Under the pieces are notes generated by a model, which saw only the letters and a program-made list of their open reading frames with translations, was not told where the DNA came from and did no database searches. This document shows, piece by piece, positions 1,627 through 45,518 of a DNA stretch of 50,782 nucleotides (the first letter of the stretch is position 1; the number at the start of each line of letters is the position of its first letter). The position numbers and the translations under genes are program-made. This stretch comes from a virus: positions 1 to 50,782 of IMG/VR virus record IMGVR_UViG_3300048589_000933. One strand, given 5' to 3'.

Positions 1627-3423
1627 TCATAGGGTGGCCTGGCACCGCAGCCGCACCACCCGCCCTTCCATCGCCGCCGGGAAGCGCCTCTTGGCGGTGG
1701 CTGCCGGGAGCCAGCGGAAGCGCCGCAGCAGCGTCTGCCGCAGCCTGTGGCTGTCGGCGTGGGTGAAGTGGCCCTGGTAGCTGGCCCACACAGCGCGGAC
1801 CGCGCGCAGGCCGTCTGGCGTGGCGAGAATGCGCCGGCCGCGGACGTGGGTGGTCTCCCACTTCGCCAAGGCTTCGCGTGCGTGGCTGACGATGCGGCGG
1901 CGGACGGTGGTGTGGGTGGGGCGGACGATGTACCCGAGGAAGTCGATGCCGGTGGCGAGCGGCGCCAGGCGCTGATCGGCTTTGAGCTCGAGGCGCAGCG
2001 ACTGCTGCAGGAACTGCTCGATCTGCACTCGCCAGCACTCGAGCTGGGCGCGATCGTGGTGGACGATGACGAAGTCGTCGACGTAGCGCAGGTAGCGCTT
2101 GGCCTTGAGCGTGTGCTTGACGAATTGGTCGAGCTGGTCGAGGTAGACGTTAGCGAAGAACTGGCTGCTGAGGTTGCCGATCGGGATCCCGCAGCCCGTC
2201 GGTGCGTTCTGCAGTTGCTTGTGCAGTGGCACGAGTGCGCGGCGCTCAGGTGTGGTGCGGTAGTTGACGCCGGTGCGGTCAATGGATGAACGCAGCAGCG
2301 CGTGCATGGTGCGCTGGGCCGCCAGGCTGAGACCTTCCCGGGTAGTGCGCGTCTTCAGCAGCGCGTATAGCGTGGGGCGATGGATGCGGTTGAAGAAGTT
2401 GGCCACGTCGAGCTGCAGGAACCAGCCGCCACCCTGGCCGCTGTGTACCTCTCGCACGAACTGCTGCAGGCGGCGTACGGCGGCGTGGCTGCCCTTGCCG
2501 CGGCGATTGGCAAAGCTGTCGTGGATGAATGCCGGCTCATAGATGGCCTCGATCTGCGGCACCAGCCAGTGGTGCACGACGCGGTCGCCGAAGTCTGGCG
2601 CGTGGATCTCTCGCGCCTTTGGCCGGGTCGCGATGAAGCACGTCGACGGTTGCGGCTGCCACGTGCCGGCGTTGAGCTGCTCCTGGAGTTCGATCAGGCG
2701 ATCAGCCCAACGGGCATCGAACGCGAGGCGGTTGGCACTGGGTTTCTTGCTGCGGCGCGCGGCCTTCCACGCGGCGTGCAAGTCGGTGAAGCTGACCTGG
2801 TGTTCATCACCCTGCAACTCACGGGCCGGACCGCGAACCGCGCGCACGCGGTTGTTGTTGTCGCGGTGGTTGTTGTTGGCGTTGCCGTTGTTGAAGCTCA
2901 CGATCCACGCGTAAGCGGCAGGCGACGCGTCCCCGCAGACTTGCGACCCGCTCGAGCAGCCGTGCTGGTAGCGCGAGTTCGTCATTTGTAGACCTCCCAT
3001 CGGGAGGCGGGTACTCAGTTGCTGGGCGCGCTGCACGACGGGCGCTTGCCCTTGCGCATCCTGGCCCTTGGGGTGCTGCCCGGTCAGCTGGCGGTACCAA
3101 CCGCCAGCCTGCTTACCCAGTTCGCGAGCGCTGCGGAACAGCGCTTCAAACTGCGCAAGGCTGGTGAATGCACGCAGTCGGCTGCAAAGCTGCAGCTGTA
3201 TTTTCAGCTCATCAATGGCCCACACCAGATTCCACGCATGCTCGCGTTGCCTGGGTCGATCGCGCCAAGCGCGATGGGTGAGCGTGGCGATCGCCAGGGC
3301 CTTCGCGCGCAGGTCGCTGCCTGCCGCGTACCGGTGGTAGCGCGGGAAGCGACGAACAGCCAGCTCGATATCGAGCATCAGTCGCTCGGCAAGCTGTGCG
3401 ATAGGTGGCAGCGCGAAGGTCAT
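1627..3423 (-). CDS. DGR Avd-like plus reverse transcriptase reading frame, containing the template repeat
   Basis: One uninterrupted 598-codon frame. Residues 1-120 resemble Avd, the small helical basic accessory protein of diversity-generating retroelements. Around residues 165-202 the frame passes through the template repeat. The rest is a group II/DGR-type reverse transcriptase with KAREIHAPDFGDRVVHHW, the DGR-type GIPIGNLSSQFFANVYL and catalytic YVDD encoded at 2074-2085. There is no stop between Avd and RT. A Shine-Dalgarno GGGAGG (2993-2998) seven bases before an in-frame ATG (2983-2985) could give a separate 452-residue RT, with YVDD at 301-304 and the template repeat translated as its N-terminus. 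The enzyme should copy template RNA with errors at adenines and retarget it to the two upstream genes. Whether Avd and RT are fused or separate is unresolved. Confidence 0.93.
   Translation of the reverse strand: MTFALPPIAQLAERLMLDIELAVRRFPRYHRYAAGSDLRAKALAIATLTHRAWRDRPRQREHAWNLVWAIDELKIQLQLCSRLRAFTSLAQFEALFRSARELGKQAGGWYRQLTGQHPKGQDAQGQAPVVQRAQQLSTRLPMGGLQMTNSRYQHGCSSGSQVCGDASPAAYAWIVSFNNGNANNNHRDNNNRVRAVRGPARELQGDEHQVSFTDLHAAWKAARRSKKPSANRLAFDARWADRLIELQEQLNAGTWQPQPSTCFIATRPKAREIHAPDFGDRVVHHWLVPQIEAIYEPAFIHDSFANRRGKGSHAAVRRLQQFVREVHSGQGGGWFLQLDVANFFNRIHRPTLYALLKTRTTREGLSLAAQRTMHALLRSSIDRTGVNYRTTPERRALVPLHKQLQNAPTGCGIPIGNLSSQFFANVYLDQLDQFVKHTLKAKRYLRYVDDFVIVHHDRAQLECWRVQIEQFLQQSLRLELKADQRLAPLATGIDFLGYIVRPTHTTVRRRIVSHAREALAKWETTHVRGRRILATPDGLRAVRAVWASYQGHFTHADSHRLRQTLLRRFRWLPAATAKRRFPAAMEGRVVRLRCQATL
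2821..2929 (-). repeat. DGR template repeat (TR)
   Basis: This copy is nearly identical to segments at 3452-3558 and 3996-4104. In the sense strand it has nine AAC codons and 23 adenines in its variable part, and its 3' end is GC-rich and nearly free of adenine. Both other copies differ from it only at adenines. AAC codons let random adenine changes avoid stop codons, as in known DGR templates. Just past its 3' end, base 2820 differs from both variable repeats (sense G in TR, C in VR), which fits an IMH*/IMH pair. Confidence 0.95.
2983..2998 (-). promoter_or_regulatory. internal ribosome binding site for a separate RT start
   Basis: In the minus-strand sense, GGGAGG lies seven bases before ATG, in the same frame as the Avd-RT frame. 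The start gives an RT beginning MTNSRYQHG, just before the template repeat. The spacing and strength are good enough that translation could restart here. Confidence 0.6.
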
Positions 3424-3442
3424 GGGAGAGCGTCAGAAAGGC

Positions 3443-3955
3443 CTAGAACTGACGGGCCGGACCGCGAACCGCGCGCACGCGGTTGTAGCCGTCGCGGTGG
3501 AAGCCGCTGGCGCTGCCGCTGCCGAAGCACACGAGCCACGCGAAAGCGGCAGGCGACGGCGCGTAGGGCGTGCCGGTCCAGTACCACTCGGACTTGCACG
3601 CGGGGAACGCCTCGGTGTCGATGGCGGGCTCGTGCCGGGTGTCGTCGACCAGCGTGAGCAGCTCGGTGCGTGTCGGCAGGCGCCAGTCGTCGTGCCCGCC
3701 CAAGCGTAGCGCGCGACAGGCGGCCTCGGCGGCCGCCCAGGGCACAGCCTTGGCGGTGGTGTCTTCCTGCGACCACTGCAGGCCGGTGTGCGTGTCGGTG
3801 ACGATGCCATCTGCCGCCTGGAATCGATCGGCGGTTGGGTCGTTGACGGCATGAACTGCAGTCGGCGCCGTCAGCGCAAACGGACGAAGCTCTGCGAGGG
3901 CCGCGAGTGCTGTGATCAAGGTGTCGTCATCGCAGCGCAGGGTAAGTTCGAGCAT
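3443..3955 (-). CDS. DGR target protein 2 (DUF1566, C-type-lectin-like fold)
   Basis: A 170-residue protein with no signal peptide or membrane segment. The first 50 residues are unique. From about residue 55 it has the DUF1566/Lcl-C pattern (TDTHTGLQW, DWRLPTRTELLTLVDD, SEWYWTGTPY) leading into the C-terminal variable repeat. This fold (formylglycine-generating-enzyme/C-type lectin type) displays the diversified residues on a stable scaffold in known DGR targets. A strong Shine-Dalgarno (AGGAG) precedes the ATG. It lies 31 bp downstream of target 1 and 19 bp upstream of the Avd frame. The ligand is unknown, and it has no domain tying it to a tail fibre. Confidence 0.9.
   Translation of the reverse strand: MLELTLRCDDDTLITALAALAELRPFALTAPTAVHAVNDPTADRFQAADGIVTDTHTGLQWSQEDTTAKAVPWAAAEAACRALRLGGHDDWRLPTRTELLTLVDDTRHEPAIDTEAFPACKSEWYWTGTPYAPSPAAFAWLVCFGSGSASGFHRDGYNRVRAVRGPARQF
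3452..3558 (-). repeat. DGR variable repeat in the promoter-distal target
   Basis: Aligned with the template repeat it shows 15 substitutions, all at template adenines (sense strand). The 31-bp adenine-poor 3' end is identical. It forms the last 36 codons of the 170-residue DUF1566 gene and ends two codons before the stop. Confidence 0.95.
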
Positions 3956-3986
3956 GGTGATCTCCTGGAGAAAAGCTCAGAAAGGC

Positions 3987-4418
3987 CTAGGACTGACGGG
4001 CCGGACCGCGAACCGCGCGCACGCGGCCGCTGCCGTCGCGGTGGCTGTCGCGGGCGTAGCCGCCGTAGAAGCTCACGACCCACGCGTAAGCGGCAGGCGA
4101 CGCGGCGTAGGGTGTGGCAGTCCAGTACCAGTCCGACTTGCACGTTGGGAACGCGGCGGTGTCGATCGTGGGCTTGGCGCGCGTTCTGTCGGCAAGCGGG
4201 AACAGTTCCTCGACGGTGGGCAGTCGCCAGTCGGTATGTCCGGCAAACGCCTGGGCGTTCAGTGCAGCGATTGCCGCCTCGGCTTCTGAGTGGTCGACAT
4301 CAGCGTCGACGGCGTCGTCGCGCGTCCACTGCAAGCCGGTGGTGGTGTCGGTGACGACGAGCTGGTCGGATGAGACGGAGAAGCGTGAGGCGGTTACGTT
4401 TGCGGCTTGTGCGTTCAT
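3987..4418 (-). CDS. DGR target protein 1 (DUF1566, C-type-lectin-like fold)
   Basis: A 143-residue paralogue of target 2: TDTTTGLQW, DWRLPTVEELFPLADRT and SDWYWTATPY lead to the variable C-terminus ending in GPARQS. I chose the ATG at 4418 because GAGGAA stands seven bases before it. The frame stays open upstream to an ATG at 4535 that overlaps the parB stop (ATGA), so a 182-residue form with a basic N-terminal extension is possible. No secretion signal is seen. Two adjacent targets served by one template is a less common DGR layout. The role is probably binding, with unknown partner. Confidence 0.9.
   Translation of the reverse strand: MNAQAANVTASRFSVSSDQLVVTDTTTGLQWTRDDAVDADVDHSEAEAAIAALNAQAFAGHTDWRLPTVEELFPLADRTRAKPTIDTAAFPTCKSDWYWTATPYAASPAAYAWVVSFYGGYARDSHRDGSGRVRAVRGPARQS
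3996..4104 (-). repeat. DGR variable repeat in the promoter-proximal target
   Basis: It differs from the template repeat at 14 positions, every one a template adenine in the sense strand. Its pattern is independent of the other variable repeat. Both target genes also share about 17 bp after the repeat (AGTYCTAGGCCTTTCTGA), which the template lacks, so this may be part of the homing signal. Confidence 0.95.
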
Positions 4419-4531
4419 GTGGGATTCCTCGAGTGGTGTTGGGCTACGGGTAACGCGTCTTGCGTCATCGTCGGCATGCCGCTGCCGGCGCAGGGCTCGC
4501 CGCTCCGGCGTGTCGCCGCTGATGTCGGTGC

Positions 4532-6508
4532 TCATTTGGCGGGCTTCTTTGCCGCTGCCTTTTTCGCGGCGGTCTTCGCGGCGGCTGGCTTGGCCTTGAG
4601 CTTGGGGGCGTTTTTGCGTAGCGCGTAGCCCGGGCGGCGCAGGGGCTTGGGCAGCCAGCCGCTGCGGCGGGTGAGCTCCTCGGCTTTGCCGGCGAGTTCG
4701 GCTTTCTTGAGGCCGGTGAGCTGGGCAGCGACGGTCTTGCCGCACACCTCGGCAACGGCTTCGATGGCGAGGGCGGCGGGCACCAGGCTGAAGAACGTCT
4801 CGGCGGTGGGCTGCCAGTGGTCGGCCATGTTCAGGTCGAGGGCGTCTGCGATGGCGACGGCGCCGAAGGAGGTGCCGCCGCCGCGCATGACGGCGTCGAG
4901 CGTCATCACGGGCACGCTGGCCAGCAGGCCGACGACGGTGTCGCGGGTTTGCTCGAGCAGCCAGGGCAGCAGGCCGGCACGAGTGCCAGGCACGTGCAGG
5001 GTGTAGCGCATGTCCTCGAGGGCTTGCGCGGTTTGGGTGAGATCGGGGTTGGCGTCGAGGTCGGCGAAACCGAGCTTGTGCAGCTCACGGGTGGCGCTTT
5101 CGGCCTTCACCTGGATGGGCAGATCGCCGCCGAATTGAGGCGGATAGATCAACGGCACGAGCAAGGTGTAGGCGAGCGTGGCGAGCGCTACGTCGGCGCG
5201 CTTGAGCAGCTCGGCCTGCAGGGCAACAGTGCGGTGGGCACTGAGGCGGCGCAGCATGCTTTCGGCCAGCGTGGGCGCGGGCTTGGGGGCGGGTGTGCCG
5301 TCTTCGGTTTGAGTGGCGGCGGCGGCCTGGCGCGCGGCTTGCGGGGTTTCGGCGATGAGGCCGCGGGTGATCTCGAGCGTGCCGCTGTGGCCGAGCTTGA
5401 CGCAGGCGCCGGCTTTGGCCTTTTGGCGGTCTGACCACACTTCTGCCGTGGCGCTGAGTTCCTTGATGCGGGCGGTGATCAGTTCGCGCTCGTCGTAGGC
5501 GGCCTCGAAGTCGAAATCGCCCGCTTCTTCGGCCTCCTCGGCTTGCGTCAGTTCGTCATCGAGCTGCATCGCGCGGGCTTCGAGCTGCTGCAGCTCGGCC
5601 TTGGCATCGTCACTTAGCTCGCTGCGCCTTGGCTGGCTGCGGTTGAACTTGTAGACGAAGCTGTGATCGTCGTAGTCCAGCAGCTTGACCCAGCTCCATC
5701 CCTCAGCGCGCAGGGCTTCGGCGGCGGCTTCTAGCTTCTCTGTGCCCAGACGGTCGAGCAGGTCGATATCGGCGACGTAGCCGGCGCCAGGCTCGAAGAG
5801 GTCGCGCACCACGGCGCCGCCCGCGGCTTCGTAGGCGGCGAGGCCCACGAAGACCACGCGCCGGTCACTGCTGTGCACGTGCTTCTCGGTGAGGGCCTCG
5901 CGCAGGCGGCGCGGCTCACGCGCCCAGGGTTGCCGACCATCGGGGCCCCACGCGCGCTCCTGGGCGGCGTGGTCGTCGGTGATGGCGAGGGCCATCAGCT
6001 GCTCGAGGGTGGCCTTGTCTTCGCGGAAGAGCCGCAGCAGCACGGGCGAGAGGTTGGCCAAGCGCAGGCGGCGTTCGACGACAAGCGGCGACACGCCGAA
6101 GCGGGCGGCGATAGTGTCGACGCCCATGCCCTCGGCGGCCAAGTCGCGAAAGGCCACGAACTCGTCATGCGGGTGCATGCGCTCGCGCACGGTGTTCTCG
6201 GCCGTGCTGGCTTCGAGCACGCGGCTGGTATCGGTTTCGATGAGGCAGGGGATGCCGTCGGCCAGCTCGGGCGGCAGTCGGTCTTGCTGGGCCAGCAGCT
6301 TGAGGGCGGCGAGGCGGCGGCCGCCGGCGATGACGCCGAAGCCGCCCATCGACTTGGGCGATGGCTCCACGATGAGGTTTTGCAGCAGGCCGAGCGCGGC
6401 GATGTTGGCGGCGAGGCCTTCGACATCCTTGCCGCCGGTGCGGCGGGCATTGTGCGTCGAGAGGTGGAGGTCGGAGAGCGGAATCAGCGTGGCGCTTGCG
6501 TTGGACAT
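4532..6508 (-). CDS. ParB/Spo0J-like DNA-binding protein
   Basis: A 658-residue protein. The ParB N-terminal domain spans about 7-115, with the STHNARR start, VIAGGRRLAALKLL and ENTVRERMHPHDEF boxes. A helix-turn-helix follows (IAARFGVSPLVVERRLRLANL region, about 133-155). Then come a long central part with an acidic coiled-coil stretch (QLDDELTQAEEAEEAGDFDF region) and a Lys/Ala-rich C-terminal tail. It is much longer than a chromosomal ParB (about 290) and resembles the plasmid/ICE/phage type. No ParA gene is seen, so a role in partition alone is doubtful. Regulation, recombination or DNA protection are alternatives. The start has GGGAG upstream. The DGR targets follow directly. Confidence 0.88.
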   Translation of the reverse strand: MSNASATLIPLSDLHLSTHNARRTGGKDVEGLAANIAALGLLQNLIVEPSPKSMGGFGVIAGGRRLAALKLLAQQDRLPPELADGIPCLIETDTSRVLEASTAENTVRERMHPHDEFVAFRDLAAEGMGVDTIAARFGVSPLVVERRLRLANLSPVLLRLFREDKATLEQLMALAITDDHAAQERAWGPDGRQPWAREPRRLREALTEKHVHSSDRRVVFVGLAAYEAAGGAVVRDLFEPGAGYVADIDLLDRLGTEKLEAAAEALRAEGWSWVKLLDYDDHSFVYKFNRSQPRRSELSDDAKAELQQLEARAMQLDDELTQAEEAEEAGDFDFEAAYDERELITARIKELSATAEVWSDRQKAKAGACVKLGHSGTLEITRGLIAETPQAARQAAAATQTEDGTPAPKPAPTLAESMLRRLSAHRTVALQAELLKRADVALATLAYTLLVPLIYPPQFGGDLPIQVKAESATRELHKLGFADLDANPDLTQTAQALEDMRYTLHVPGTRAGLLPWLLEQTRDTVVGLLASVPVMTLDAVMRGGGTSFGAVAIADALDLNMADHWQPTAETFFSLVPAALAIEAVAEVCGKTVAAQLTGLKKAELAGKAEELTRRSGWLPKPLRRPGYALRKNAPKLKAKPAAAKTAAKKAAAKKPAK

Positions 6509-6672
6509 GGGTTGACTCCCGGGGCTTGGGATTGCGCGATCTGGTGGGTAAGCACTGCAGCGATGTCGCGATAGGCCTGCAGTGAGGCGTAAGAGCGGTT
6601 GGTGTTGCTGGCCTTGTCTTCGACGAAGCGCAGCAGCTCGCGCAGGCGAGCGGGCTTCACGGGTTCAGCCAT
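6484..6672 (-). CDS. small hypothetical phage protein
   Basis: 62 residues, mostly helical, with no recognised domain. It overlaps the parB start by 25 bp and is overlapped by the previous gene's stop, so it is translated as part of the coupled leftward operon. The function is unknown. Confidence 0.6.
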   Translation of the reverse strand: MAEPVKPARLRELLRFVEDKASNTNRSYASLQAYRDIAAVLTHQIAQSQAPGVNPCPTQAPR

Positions 6673-6868
6673 GTGTGATCAGCCCTGGGCGCACCCACTG
6701 GAAGGCGTTCTCAGCGTGGTAGGCGGCGAGCTTGCGCAGGCCGGTTGGCAGGCCATCCTCGCCGGCCAGCAAAGGCTCGGACTCTGCGAACGCGGCGCTT
6801 TCGAGCGCGGAGAGGCACTGGCTTGCGTGGTATTGCACGCCGTTGAGTTGCTGCTGCAGACGGCTCAT
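6665..6868 (-). CDS. small hypothetical phage protein
   Basis: 67 residues, starting MSRLQQQLNG. The start overlaps the previous gene's stop (ATGA), typical of translational coupling, and this fixes the start. No domain is recognised. It is probably an early or lysogenic accessory protein. Confidence 0.6.
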   Translation of the reverse strand: MSRLQQQLNGVQYHASQCLSALESAAFAESEPLLAGEDGLPTGLRKLAAYHAENAFQWVRPGLITHG

Positions 6869-19548: not shown

Positions 19549-19797
19549 ATGCCCACCGCCGCCGCCACGATGCTGCAATCCTACATGGACGCCGAAACGG
19601 CGCTCCTGAAAGGGCAGTCGATTCGATGGGGTGAGCGCATGCTCACGCGCGCCGATCTGGCCGTGGTGCAGGCAGGCCGCCGCGAGTGGGAGGGAAAGGT
19701 TGCTGCCGAGTCGGCAGCCGCGCAGGGCCGATCATCGCTGTTTGCAGTGGCGGACTTCAGCGGCCGCGGTGGTGACTGCGAGGGCTTCCGGTCGTGA
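19549..19797 (+). CDS. gpW-like head-tail joining protein
   Basis: 82 residues. LLKGQSIRWGERMLTRADLAVVQAGRREWE has the pattern of the gpW family (about 70 residues), which completes the portal vertex. It lies in the lambda position between terminase and portal and overlaps the portal start (GTGA). Confidence 0.75.
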   Translation: MPTAAATMLQSYMDAETALLKGQSIRWGERMLTRADLAVVQAGRREWEGKVAAESAAAQGRSSLFAVADFSGRGGDCEGFRS

Positions 19798-22700
19798 ACT
19801 GGGTGGCCCGCGCAATCGACCGCACCGTCGAGACCATCGCGCCCATGCACGGCTTGCGGCGCGCCCAGGCGCGCAACGCCCTCGCGTTGTCCAACAAAGC
19901 GTACGACGCTGCTGATCGCAACCGCTTCCGCGACTCCGTGCGCGACTTCGGCAGCGGCAACAACGCCGTGGTCGGCAGCGGCTTGTACGTGCGCAACATG
20001 GCGCGCCACCTGGACCGCAATCACGACATCGTCAGCGGCGGCCTGCACACCCTGGCGCAAAACATCATCGGCGCCACGGGCATCGGCGTCGAGCCGCAGC
20101 CGCGCAACCGCAACGGCGACGTGCTCGAGGATCTCGCCTTCCAGCTCAGCATGCTCTGGAGCGACTTCTGCAAGCGGCCCGAGGTTACCTGGCAGCACGA
20201 CAACGGCAGCATGGAGCGCCTGTTGTGCCGCACCTGGTTGCGCGATGGCGAAGGCCTCGCGCAGGAGTTGATTGGCCCTGTCCCGCTGCTCGATCACGGT
20301 ACGCGCGTGCCGTACAGCCTGGAGATGATCGAGCCGGACTTGCTGCCGTGGGATTTCACCGAGCCGGGCCGAGGCATCACGCAGGGGGTGCAGCGCAACG
20401 CCTGGGGGCGTCCCGTCGCCTACCACCTGTACAAGCAACACCCCGGCGAGATGCTGGCCCTGCTCGGTGAAACCAAGAGCGTGCCGGCCGAGCGGATGAT
20501 GCACATCAAGCTGGTCGACCGCATCGGCCAGGTGCGTGGTATCAGCCTGCTGGCGTCCGTGCTCACGCGCCTGGACGACCTGAAAGACTACGAAGAAAGC
20601 GAGCGCATCGCCGCGAAGATCGCCGCGTGCTTCGCCGCTTTCATCATCAAGGGCGACGCAACCCATCTGCCGGAAGGCGTGCCCGACAAGGATCGCACTG
20701 CGCGCCTTTCGCCGGGCATGGTGTTTGACACGCTGCGCCCTGGCGAGTCTGTCGGCACTGTCGACACCAATCGCCCCAACCCGAACCTTGAAGGCTGGCG
20801 CAATGGCCAGCTGCGTGCCGGTGCGTCGGGCTTCCGCATCAGCTTCAGTTCGTTCGCGAAGAACTACAACGGCACCTACAGCGCGCAACGGCAAGAGCTG
20901 GTCGAGCAGTACGGCGCCTATGGCGTGCTCAGCCAGGAGTTCATCGGCGCGATCGCGCGCCGTAAGTACGAGCGCTTTGCCGCTGTCGCCCTGGCCACAC
21001 CCGGCCTGCTGCGCATCCCGTCCGACTTCGCGGCCATGAGCATTGGCGACGCGATGTACGTCGCGCCGCAGATGCCGTGGATCAACCCGATGCACGAAGC
21101 CGAGGCCATGGCGCTGCTCGAAGAGCACACCTACATGTCCGGCCCCGAGATCATCCGCCGCCGCGGCGCAAACCCGCGCGACGTGCTCGATCAGCAATCG
21201 GCCTGGATCGAGCGCAAGCGCACCTGGGGCATTCCCAGTGCCACGACCGGGCCAGCCAAGCCACCGGAGAACCCCATGCAAAACACCCCCGGCGCGGCAG
21301 CGCCCGCCGCTGCGCGTCATCGCACCAGCCACCTTGCTGCCGAGGCGTCAACCTCGGGCGCAACTGGCCAGCGCTCGGTGCTGCGCGCCACCGCGCTCGC
21401 CTCTGGCGTCGAGCTGCTGATCTACGGGCCCATTGGCCTGAGCTTCTGGGATGACGGCATCACCGTCGAGTCCATCGCTGCGCAGCTGCGTGCCGCGCCG
21501 GCCGGTGATGTACGCGTGCGCATCAACAGCGACGGCGGCTTTGTCAGCGAGGGCATCGCCATCCACAACGTGCTGCGCGAGTGCGGTCGGCGCGTCGTTG
21601 TCGATATCGAAGGCGTGGCCGCCAGCATCAGCAGCCTGATCGCGATGGCGGGCGATGAGACCCGCATCTACTCCAACGCGTCGATGATGCTGCACACGCC
21701 AAAGGCCGGCCAGTTCGGCTCGCCGGAGGACATGGAAGACGCCGCGCAGTACCTGCGCGTGCAGCGCGAGGCCATGGCGCAGAGCTACGCCCGCAAGACC
21801 GGCCGGCCCGCCGCCGAATTTGTCGCTCTGATGGCTGACGGCCGCGACCACTGGTACACCGCCGGCGAATCCATCACCGAGAAGCTGGCCGACACCCTCA
21901 TCGACGGCACGCCCGCGCAGCTCGAAGCCGACGCTGCGGCCGCTGCCCTTGTCGGCTACATCAACGCGATCAGCAAGGCGCCGGATGCCCCGCGCCTCCA
22001 GCTGCGTTCGCACATCAACTCGGCCGTTTCCGTGGCCGCTTTCGCCTCGCTTTCCGAGGCATACCAACGCTCCGTCCTGGAGCACATAGAGGACCCAGCC
22101 ATGCGTAAGCTTTTGGTTGAAGCAATGGCGGCTGTCGCAGGCGCCCCGCCGAACACCACTCCCGCAGCAGCGCCCGCTGTTGCCACCGCTCCAGCACCTG
22201 CCGTTGCACCAACGCCTGCGCCCGCACCGGCAGCCGTCGCTGTGGCGCCCCAGCCAGCCGCCGTGGCTGCCGATGCGATGGCCCTGGCCACCGCCGCCAT
22301 CGCCCAGCGCAACACCACCATCCGCGGCATCTTTGCCAGCTTCCGCGAAATGACCGGCGTCGCGACGCTCGAGGCCGACGTGCTGGCCGATCCCAGCATC
22401 ACCATCGAGCAGGCGCAGGCGCGCTTGCTGGGCCGCGTTGGCCAGGGTTCGCCGGTGCAGGGCACCGCCGGCCACGTCGAGGCAGGCACTGACGAGCGTG
22501 ACCGTCTGCGCGCAGCCGCATCCAATCTGCTGCTGGCCCGCCACAACATCATCCAGGGCCCCGAGGCCGAAGCCGCGCGCCAGGGCAACCCATTCGGCAG
22601 CATGACGCTGACGGCGATGGCGGAATCGTTCCTGCGCCACCAGCACGTCGACACGCGAGAGATGAACCGCGAGCAGATCGCGGTTCGCGCCCTGGCGCAG

Positions 22701-23591
22701 CAGACCGCCAGCGACTTCGTGGTGGCCCTCGAGAACACGATGCACCGCTCGGTGCAGGCCGGCTACCGGCTCATCCCGTTCACCTGGTCGCGCTTCTGCT
22801 CCGTCGGCATGCTCACCGACTACCGCCCGCACAACCGCTACTCGCTGTCGAGCTTCAGCGATCTGAAGGACGTCAACGAATCCGGCGAGTACGAGGACGG
22901 CTCGCTGGGCGACGCCGAGAAGCAAACCATTCAGGGCAAGCGCAAGGGGCGCATCCTGCAGATCACTCCGGAAGTCGTCGTGAATGACGACCTCGGCTTG
23001 ATCCTGCGTGCAGCTGGCGCCCTCGGCCAGGCCGCGGGTCGCACGATCGAGAAAGACGTGCACGCCCTGTTCGCCTTGAACAGCGGCTTCGGCCCGACGA
23101 TGTCGGACGGCCTCGCGCTGTTCCACGCCAACCACGCGAACCTGGCTGCCACCGCCGGCGCGCCGACCATCGCGATCATCGATGCAATGCGTCAGCAGAT
23201 GGCCAGCCAGATGGACCCGGCCGGTAACGACTACCTGGACATCACCCCTGCGCTGTGGGTGGGCCCAATGGCTCTCGGCAGCACGGCGCGCGAACTGAAC
23301 GCGCAGGAATACAACGACGAAAGCAACAAGAACCAGCGCAAGCCCAATGTTGTGCGTGGTCTCTTCCGCGACGTTGTCGACTCACGCCGGATGGCCGCGC
23401 AGGTCTGGTACACGTTCGCCGATCCGAATGTCGAGCCGGTGTTCGAGGTTGCCTTCCTCGATGGCGTGCAGACGCCGACGCTCGATCAGCAGACCAACTT
23501 CCGCACCGACGGCGTCGCCTGGAAGGTCTCGCATCGCTACGGCGTTGGCGGGGTCGCCTGGCGTGGCGCCGTGCGTAACGCCGGCGGCTGA
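19794..23591 (+). CDS. portal - ClpP-like prohead protease - major capsid polyprotein
   Basis: A single 1265-codon frame. Residues 1-490 are a lambda-family portal (RDFGSGNNAVVGSGLYVRN, EMIEPDLLPW, GISLLASVLTRLDDL). Residues about 495-720 are a ClpP-type protease: INSDGGFVSEG, GVAASISSLIAMAGD with S611, and MLHTPKAG with H634. From about 770 comes an Ala/Pro-rich scaffold-like segment and a Mu gpT-type capsid domain (about 910-1265). Protease-capsid fusions are a known annotation class. A fusion that includes the portal is unusual. Two in-frame ATGs with good Shine-Dalgarno sequences (21276 and 22101) may let the ribosome also make protease-capsid and capsid alone, which would solve the stoichiometry problem of 12 portals against hundreds of capsid subunits. 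The capsid half shows no disruption. Confidence 0.9.
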   Translation: MNWVARAIDRTVETIAPMHGLRRAQARNALALSNKAYDAADRNRFRDSVRDFGSGNNAVVGSGLYVRNMARHLDRNHDIVSGGLHTLAQNIIGATGIGVEPQPRNRNGDVLEDLAFQLSMLWSDFCKRPEVTWQHDNGSMERLLCRTWLRDGEGLAQELIGPVPLLDHGTRVPYSLEMIEPDLLPWDFTEPGRGITQGVQRNAWGRPVAYHLYKQHPGEMLALLGETKSVPAERMMHIKLVDRIGQVRGISLLASVLTRLDDLKDYEESERIAAKIAACFAAFIIKGDATHLPEGVPDKDRTARLSPGMVFDTLRPGESVGTVDTNRPNPNLEGWRNGQLRAGASGFRISFSSFAKNYNGTYSAQRQELVEQYGAYGVLSQEFIGAIARRKYERFAAVALATPGLLRIPSDFAAMSIGDAMYVAPQMPWINPMHEAEAMALLEEHTYMSGPEIIRRRGANPRDVLDQQSAWIERKRTWGIPSATTGPAKPPENPMQNTPGAAAPAAARHRTSHLAAEASTSGATGQRSVLRATALASGVELLIYGPIGLSFWDDGITVESIAAQLRAAPAGDVRVRINSDGGFVSEGIAIHNVLRECGRRVVVDIEGVAASISSLIAMAGDETRIYSNASMMLHTPKAGQFGSPEDMEDAAQYLRVQREAMAQSYARKTGRPAAEFVALMADGRDHWYTAGESITEKLADTLIDGTPAQLEADAAAAALVGYINAISKAPDAPRLQLRSHINSAVSVAAFASLSEAYQRSVLEHIEDPAMRKLLVEAMAAVAGAPPNTTPAAAPAVATAPAPAVAPTPAPAPAAVAVAPQPAAVAADAMALATAAIAQRNTTIRGIFASFREMTGVATLEADVLADPSITIEQAQARLLGRVGQGSPVQGTAGHVEAGTDERDRLRAAASNLLLARHNIIQGPEAEAARQGNPFGSMTLTAMAESFLRHQHVDTREMNREQIAVRALAQQTASDFVVALENTMHRSVQAGYRLIPFTWSRFCSVGMLTDYRPHNRYSLSSFSDLKDVNESGEYEDGSLGDAEKQTIQGKRKGRILQITPEVVVNDDLGLILRAAGALGQAAGRTIEKDVHALFALNSGFGPTMSDGLALFHANHANLAATAGAPTIAIIDAMRQQMASQMDPAGNDYLDITPALWVGPMALGSTARELNAQEYNDESNKNQRKPNVVRGLFRDVVDSRRMAAQVWYTFADPNVEPVFEVAFLDGVQTPTLDQQTNFRTDGVAWKVSHRYGVGGVAWRGAVRNAGG
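21266..21278 (+). promoter_or_regulatory. internal ribosome binding site for protease-capsid product
   Basis: GGAGA (21266-21270), five bases, then in-frame ATG (21276), codon 495, at the junction between the portal and the protease. The product would begin MQNTPGAAAP. This is the expected place for a separate gene start if the portal once had its own stop. Confidence 0.6.
22088..22103 (+). promoter_or_regulatory. internal ribosome binding site for capsid product
   Basis: AGAGGA (22088-22093), seven bases, then in-frame ATG (22101), codon 770. The product would begin MRKLLVEAMAAVAG, before the scaffold-like linker and the capsid domain. It resembles the nested C/Nu3 arrangement of lambda. 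Confidence 0.65.
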
Positions 23592-23688: not shown

Positions 23689-24072
23689 ATGGCAAAGAAC
23701 TATGTGTGTCCCGGCGACACCATCCCGTGGGTCAACACCACCGGCGTAGCGGTCGCTTCCGGCCAGCTCGTGCGAGTCGGCCACATGCTGGGCGTGGCGC
23801 TGGTCGCCATTGCCATCGGCGCCACCGGCAGCGTCGCAATCGAGGGCGTGTTCCGCGGCGTGCCGAAGGTCTCCGGCGCAGTCTTCGTTCAGGGCGAGAA
23901 GCTCGTCTTCGACTCGAGCGCCGGCTCCGGCGTGGGCGCATTCGATGACGCCGCAGCCACGCCAGCCACTGGCGACATCACCGGCGGCGCCGTGGCCTGG
24001 GCGGCGGGCACCGATGGCCAGACCACCTGCACGGTGAAGCTCACCCCGGGCAACGCAACGCTCACCGCGTAA
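23689..24072 (+). CDS. DUF2190-family capsid decoration protein
   Basis: 127 residues, all-beta and Gly/Val-rich, with CPGDTIPWVNTTGVAVASGQ and IEGVFRGVPK. DUF2190 proteins are structural, commonly encoded next to the major capsid protein and thought to cement the shell. The gene has a clear AGAGGA site and is followed by a terminator, as expected for a highly expressed virion protein. Confidence 0.85.
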   Translation: MAKNYVCPGDTIPWVNTTGVAVASGQLVRVGHMLGVALVAIAIGATGSVAIEGVFRGVPKVSGAVFVQGEKLVFDSSAGSGVGAFDDAAATPATGDITGGAVAWAAGTDGQTTCTVKLTPGNATLTA

Positions 24073-44468: not shown

Positions 44469-45518
44469 ATGGAACACGACTACTTGGTCTTCATTGGCCG
44501 CTTCGAGCCGTTTCACAACGGCCACGCCGCCGTCGCCCGCCACGCACTGGCTCGGGCACGCAAGCTGATCGTTCTGGTCGGCTCGGCCGACACCCCACGC
44601 ACCATCCGCAATCCGTGGTCCGCGTCCGAGCGGGCGGTGATGATCCGTGCCGCTTTGGGCGAGGATTCTGCACGCGTGCTGGTGCATCCCTTGCGCGACC
44701 ATCTGTACAACGAGGCGCAGTGGATCACCTCGGTGCAGCGCACGGTGGCGGAAGCCATCCGCATCGATGGCGGTGCCGAGGATGCACGCGTCGGGCTGGT
44801 CGGTCAGGACAAGGACGCCAGCAGCTATTACCTCGCCGAGTTTCCGCAATGGCCGCTGCTTGATGTACGGCGCAGTGAAACGCTGTCGGCCACCGACCTG
44901 CGGCGCTATCTGTTCGAGGCCGATGGTCCCTCCGCCTCCGGTGCCTTGCGCCTGCTCGAGGCCAATGTGCCGACGCCGGTCTACGAGATGCTCGACGCAT
45001 TTCGCCGGAGCTCGCCGGCCTATGCGCAGCTGGTTGCCGAACACCGTTTCATCGATGCCTACCGTGCCGGTTGGGCGGTCGCGCCGTATCCGCCGACCTT
45101 TGTCACCACCGATGCGGTGGTCGTCCATTCCGGCCACCTGCTGCTGGTCCGACGTCGGGCCGAACCCGGCAAGGGTCTGTGGGCGCTGCCCGGTGGCTTT
45201 GTCCAGCAGGGCGAGCGCCTGCTTGATGGCTGCCTGCGCGAGCTGCGCGAGGAGACTCGGCTGCGGGTGCCGATGCCCGTGCTGCGCGGCTCGCTGCGCG
45301 GCACGCATGTGTTCGATCACCCGGAGCGCTCGCTGCGCGGTCGCACCATCACCCACGCTTTCCACTTCGATTTTCCCACCGGCGAGCTGCCGCTGGTGCG
45401 CGGCGCCGACGATGCCGACAAGGCACGCTGGCTGCCGCTGAGCGACGTGCTGGAGATGGGCGCGCAGCTGTTCGAAGATCATCTGCACATCATCGAGTTC
45501 TTCGTCGGTCGCGGTTGA
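44469..45518 (+). CDS. nadM: bifunctional NMN adenylyltransferase / Nudix hydrolase
   Basis: 349 residues. The N-terminal nucleotidyltransferase has GRFEPFHNGH (10-19) and a SATDLRRYL region, and makes NAD from NMN and ATP. The C-terminal Nudix domain (about 210-349) has GGFVQQGE...LRELREET (242-263), with R264 in the place where the Nudix consensus has Gly. The Nudix half usually hydrolyses ADP-ribose. It is followed 57 bp later by nadV in the same direction, giving a two-step nicotinamide salvage route. Confidence 0.93.
   Translation: MEHDYLVFIGRFEPFHNGHAAVARHALARARKLIVLVGSADTPRTIRNPWSASERAVMIRAALGEDSARVLVHPLRDHLYNEAQWITSVQRTVAEAIRIDGGAEDARVGLVGQDKDASSYYLAEFPQWPLLDVRRSETLSATDLRRYLFEADGPSASGALRLLEANVPTPVYEMLDAFRRSSPAYAQLVAEHRFIDAYRAGWAVAPYPPTFVTTDAVVVHSGHLLLVRRRAEPGKGLWALPGGFVQQGERLLDGCLRELREETRLRVPMPVLRGSLRGTHVFDHPERSLRGRTITHAFHFDFPTGELPLVRGADDADKARWLPLSDVLEMGAQLFEDHLHIIEFFVGRG

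Follow-up and report, generated by a model that had tools for sequence, protein, structure and literature searches.

The window analysed here, positions 1 to 50,782 of IMG/VR virus record IMGVR_UViG_3300048589_000933 (50,782 nucleotides (nt); G+C content 66.7%), contains an open reading frame of 1265 codons at 19794-23591 on the plus strand. The frame starts with GTG, has no internal stop, and encodes, in this order, a lambda-type portal, a ClpP-type protease, a scaffold region, and an HK97-fold capsid protein. We consider it likely that a portal gene has been fused in frame to a tripartite gene of the Gifsy-2 type, with the downstream ribosome sites kept, three nested products made, and the linkers probably cut by the protease. 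The protease-scaffold-capsid part is reportedly known from a study of Gifsy-2 as the "tripartite capsid gene". The length of the frame alone is no proof, because a G+C content this high often yields long frames by chance (the antisense strand of the related contig L003 carries an open reading frame of 1322 codons); homology counts as proof. The single portal-protease-capsid frame of the original prediction is confirmed by its Pfam domains and by the presence of the same frame in three other IMG/VR contigs (L002, L003, and L089).

Domains were assigned with Pfam, NCBIfam, and PHROGs profiles, and AlphaFold was run on two halves of the chain separately. All three Pfam matches exceed the curated cut-offs: Phage_portal_2 (residues 53-375, E 3e-81), CLP_protease (567-704, E 2e-22), and Phage_capsid_4 (966-1262, E 2e-43). 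The portal part (19794-21239) matches TIGR01539 over residues 42-482 with 291.8 bits against a cut-off of 172.7, and the top Foldseek match of its model is the lambda portal (8xow, E 6e-22); curated score and fold both place it in the lambda portal family. A linker follows (residues 484-534, 21243-21395), which is predicted to be disordered (predicted local distance difference test score, pLDDT, <50) and whose length varies in the fused clade. The ClpP-type protease domain (21492-21905) is recognized by Pfam, by alignment with solved ClpP chains, and by fold, the model of the portal-protease half matching both the lambda portal and ClpP. In this alignment the predicted Ser-His-Asp triad is complete, with Ser611 at 21624-21626, His634 at 21693-21695, and Asp685 at 21846-21848, and the protease belongs to the ClpP-type (S14) family. 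An Ala/Pro-rich disordered stretch and a helical scaffold-like region come next (22101-22493). In the AlphaFold model of the predicted 496-amino-acid (aa) product, helices are at 22260-22439 and a flexible gap is at 22449-22487; a scaffold role for this region is inferred from phages MD8 and HK97. The major capsid domain with the HK97 fold occupies 22494-23591 (Pfam, AlphaFold model, and Foldseek matches to HK97-fold capsids). The low-confidence linkers of the models are at residues 484-534 and about 778-820.

The frame is equally unbroken in L002, L003, and L089, which are 78-82% identical to the window in amino acid sequence; the four contigs come from different metagenomes. Across this fused clade the portal keeps its frame and its conservation up to residue 478, and linkers of 17, 11, 18, and 18 codons then lead to an ATG. 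This ATG continues as ATGA in L002, L003, and L089 and as ATGC in the window. Between L003 and L089, the portal and protease parts are nearly identical and the capsid part is strongly different, which looks like a recombinational exchange of the capsid half within the fused gene.

To see how rare the fusion is, loci were fetched with portal, protease, and capsid queries and scanned with domain profiles, and duplicates were removed, leaving 254 distinct loci that have both portal and protease; as the best 80 loci per scan were kept, this sample leans towards the query sequences. Four loci are fused and form one clade, one more is a fused singleton (L306), and 249 are split. The rarity expected in the original prediction is thus borne out. 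In the closest split relatives (56-64% portal identity), the portal ends in a 4-nt ATGA overlap whose ATG is the start of the protease, and most have a GAGG site at this start. In the nearest annotated phages, F10, Fels-1, and Gifsy-2, a separate portal gene lies in another frame, and its overlap with the protease-capsid gene is 29, 83, and 86 nt, respectively. No fused case is found among 274 genomes of one class, no full-length relative in two scans of species genomes, and no near match in the phage or plasmid records searched. The literature searched, beyond whose reach most subscription papers lie, gives no portal-protease-capsid fusion either. Judged from the sequences, the portal joined in frame is new and makes a clade-specific four-part gene. 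L306 has a portal-protease-scaffold-capsid frame of its own (2809-6738, 1309 codons, 33% identical) with a Shine-Dalgarno (SD) site and ATG at both borders (4414 and 5389). Since its nearest relatives (62% identity) are split, it is retained only as a second case without a replicate. In L007 (Rahnella aquatilis HX2 plasmid PRA1), a portal gene of the same family is split over two frames and unannotated; it is probably from a decayed prophage copy.

Two ATGs within the frame have good ribosome sites, as originally predicted, and each of the four fused contigs retains both. The first is ATG 21276 (codon 495), preceded by GGAG at 21266-21269 with a 6-nt spacer (21266-21278 in all) and predicted to give a 771-aa product. 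The GGAG-6 nt-ATG arrangement has a dG of -6.6 and persists though the linker around it varies in length and sequence; SD energies here and below were computed with the Escherichia coli anti-SD sequence. In the split relatives, the protease gene begins at the position of this ATG. The second is ATG 22101 (codon 770), preceded by GAGG at 22089-22092 with an 8-nt spacer (22089-22103), and the layout is identical in the four contigs. It is predicted to start a 496-aa scaffold-capsid precursor. The claim that these ATGs lie at the exact domain borders is refined for both: the first is within the predicted disordered post-portal linker, and the second is not at the capsid border but opens the scaffold-capsid part about 130 codons ahead of the folded capsid domain. 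In the four fused contigs, both internal starts are among the 2-15% least structured positions of the frame, and the structure at the portal start exceeds that of 90-99.8% of positions. Start 2 is also located in a peak of codons ending in A or T, to which the Ala/Pro repeats add.

A candidate nested start for scaffold plus capsid is general in the protease-capsid linker of the tripartite family, which is new. Among 105 representatives of protease-capsid frames (at 75% identity), 97 have an in-frame ATG with an SD dG of -5 or better in this linker, compared with 14.4% of control segments of equal length taken inside domains. The surroundings of start 2 vary by subfamily (GAGGAGTTTGAGCATATG in Gifsy-2, AAGGAGAGCAACACCATG in L066, and GAGGACCCAGCCATG in the window); therefore, the common element is the ribosome site and not one peptide. 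An earlier test by synonymous recoding around the best linker ATG gave a median p of 0.48 and a Fisher value of 0.02. Because the upstream Glu, Lys, and Gln residues favour an SD by themselves, its power is low, and it was therefore replaced by a comparison of NAG with NAA codons. The motif, [Glu/Gln/Lys]-[Glu/Asp]-[Phe/Tyr/Val/Trp]-x-x-Met, was chosen on amino acids only, and its first codon was tested for a final G because the SD requires G there. The SD-forming codon is NAG in 128 of 128 loci and in 61 of 61 distinct DNAs. With one sequence taken per cluster, it is NAG in 32 of 32 (expected 17.2, P 2e-11); kinship limits the independence of the sequences, and the cluster-level test remedies this only in part. 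Elsewhere in the same frames the NAG share for such dipeptides is 39%, and several family members have NAG at the SD position even with an overall NAG usage of just 0.12-0.35. We read this as selection of synonymous sites for a ribosome site at start 2 across the family.

Three nested products of 1265, 771, and 496 aa, with the protease freeing the portal, are thus the most likely output of the gene. The structured portal start would give a smaller amount of the full portal-protease-scaffold-capsid protein. Entry at ATG 21276 would give the protease-scaffold-capsid protein, and entry at ATG 22101 the scaffold-capsid precursor, which is expected to make up the bulk of the shell. The weakly structured internal starts and the codon selection at start 2 favour the original idea that internal initiation sets the ratio of portal to capsid. 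In the procapsid, the ClpP-type protease probably cuts the chain within the disordered post-portal linker and within the flexible gap that precedes the capsid domain, which would free portal and capsid and remove the scaffold. In this way one gene could yield virus-head proteins in very different amounts. The nested start across the family would also explain how phages with protease-capsid fusions avoid having a protease on every shell subunit, and databases that list one "fusion protein" per such gene probably lack the main capsid precursor.

Several observations weigh against this account of nested products. At start 1, the SD codon is GAG in three of three distinct sequences, for which chance alone gives 0.64 x 0.39 x 0.57 = 0.14 (calculated by hand), and the chance of the linkers remaining in frame is about 1 in 9. 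The case for this start is conservation amid divergence together with the place shared with the gene start of split relatives, and three distinct sequences give no firm statistic. At start 2, the motif of the window's type also points to selection, with NAG in 16 of 16 (expected 10.2, P 4e-4, relatedness uncorrected) and in 13 of 13 distinct DNAs (P 3e-3), but its signal is weaker. There is an overlap between the portal start and the stop codon of the preceding frame (GTGA in the window; ATGA in L002, L003, and L089), and translational coupling could override the structure at this start. A cleavage motif shared by the borders was sought by eye, and none was identified.

The fusion may also be a near-neutral stop loss, in which an indel in the portal tail fused the frame and the fused portal is tolerated or trimmed by the protease. 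The layout would then have no purpose, and the starts would persist since the downstream products are needed. The rarity of the fusion among the 254 loci agrees with such an event, and the independent singleton L306 suggests that such losses can occur. ATGA at the border in three of the four fused contigs resembles the remnant of a former stop and is possibly a fossil of the lost portal stop. However, the frame has been kept over about 20% divergence and through at least two changes of linker length, all in multiples of three. In addition, the split proteases of L009, L010, L012, L014, L030, and L091 have a hydrophobic, signal-like N-terminus (e.g., MKRSVLAVAITAAILAAPALPA), while the fused clade has a flexible Pro/Ala-rich linker at this position. 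Each of these two points argues modestly against a purposeless fusion, which we regard as unlikely but worth keeping in mind. The 1265-aa chain as the sole product, cut by the protease into equimolar parts without any internal initiation, is very improbable. The frame and a protease with an apparently intact triad would permit such processing, but an equimolar supply does not match a head with 12 portals in its ring and capsid subunits numbering some hundreds. Nor does it agree with SD-ATGs retained at both borders and synonymous sites selected for an SD at the capsid start. A lone portal that arises by programmed frameshifting near the border and ends at the out-of-frame TGA of ATGA is slightly less probable still. 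A TGA in the +1 frame is present at the internal ATG of L002, L003, and L089, with a CCCCC run just upstream in L003 and L089, but the window lacks such a stop (its next +1 stop lies 142 nt further along), and the four contigs have no slippery site in common. A lone portal made by frameshifting or by an early stop was rejected, as neither a slippery site nor a stop is shared. A stop or frameshift concealed by a sequencing or assembly artefact is hardly credible. It was rejected on the agreement of four contigs from different metagenomes, whose portal C-termini are conserved and in frame; by contrast, L365 (1483-5278) illustrates such a case, its seeming portal-protease fusion having a portal tail that is not in frame and a capsid encoded in a different frame, probably through indel errors or as a decayed copy.

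A stronger form of the nested-product account concerns the role of the full-length chain. In portals, the crown is made by the C-terminal part. The portal crown points to the capsid interior (PMC10359639). Therefore, in a portal extended at its C-terminus, the protease, scaffold, and capsid domains would lie within the nascent shell. We tentatively suggest, with less confidence than for the nested products themselves, that the 1265-aa chain might be a purpose-built seed, a portal ring with protease, scaffold, and capsid tethered to its crown, while nested starts supply the remaining shell and the "protease-capsid fusion" genes of the family are in fact two nested genes. How a procapsid gets exactly one portal and how the protease is loaded are long-standing questions; if the chain is a seed, portal-nucleated assembly and protease loading would be built in. 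A covalent portal-protease-scaffold-capsid chain that occurs in nature offers a ready test case.

The frame is flanked by other genes of the head region. An 82-aa open reading frame (19549-19797, plus strand), whose TGA overlaps the portal start codon, lies at the position of the head-tail adaptor in relatives such as F10; it has no Pfam match, and the name comes from position alone. Directly downstream is a gene for a capsid cement/decoration protein (23689-24072, plus strand; PF09956, E 4e-18; phrog_122). Further away, 1627-4560 on the minus strand holds a diversity-generating retroelement with a reverse transcriptase frame that has a weak Avd-like N-terminal match. Its template repeat (2811-2927) is inside the reverse transcriptase open frame, and most differences between the template and its two variable repeats (3442-3558 and 3986-4102) fall on A (15 of 18 in the first repeat, 14 of 18 in the second). 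A Cytidyltransferase/Nudix-type protein (44469-45518; phrog_395, E 8e-73) is possibly encoded by a phage-borne gene of NAD (nicotinamide adenine dinucleotide) metabolism.

Among known systems, the part of the gene from 21276 on resembles the tripartite gene of Gifsy-2 and MD8 (NF045540), having a ClpP-type protease, a scaffold region, and an HK97-fold capsid in one frame. It scores 501.3 bits against this model (cut-off 475, residues 539-1264). By these profile and domain data this part is a member of the family, and the whole gene is a variant: the separate portal gene expected in this family is lacking in the window, L002, L003, and L089, where the portal shares the frame with no stop between. 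The original prediction, which noted that protease-capsid fusions are known, is corrected here in that this part of the frame is the tripartite gene, scaffold included. Gifsy-2 has a strong SD-ATG in the same linker, at codon 221. In Pseudomonas phage MD8, gene 5 carries protease, scaffold, and capsid, and an internal start is not mentioned in the section that describes it (PMC8508860). The closest precedent for the nested start is lambda C/Nu3, in which the start of the scaffold product lies within the protease gene and in its frame (Shaw and Murialdo 1980, cited in PMC8508860). As there, the window has an in-frame internal start with a ribosome site that omits the protease (ATG 22101). While Nu3 is scaffold alone and the lambda capsid gene is separate, the predicted nested product of the window includes the capsid, and, unlike in lambda, the window's frame has the portal ahead of the protease. 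In HK97, the capsid protein carries the scaffold at its N-terminus, and this scaffold wraps the portal; the portal is viewed as an assembly hub, and the scaffold domains of 30 capsid subunits touch it (PMC10275583). HK97 portal, protease, and capsid are encoded by three genes, whereas the chain of the window would be covalent at synthesis. By analogy, such a covalent portal link would be an extreme form of the HK97 portal-scaffold hub.

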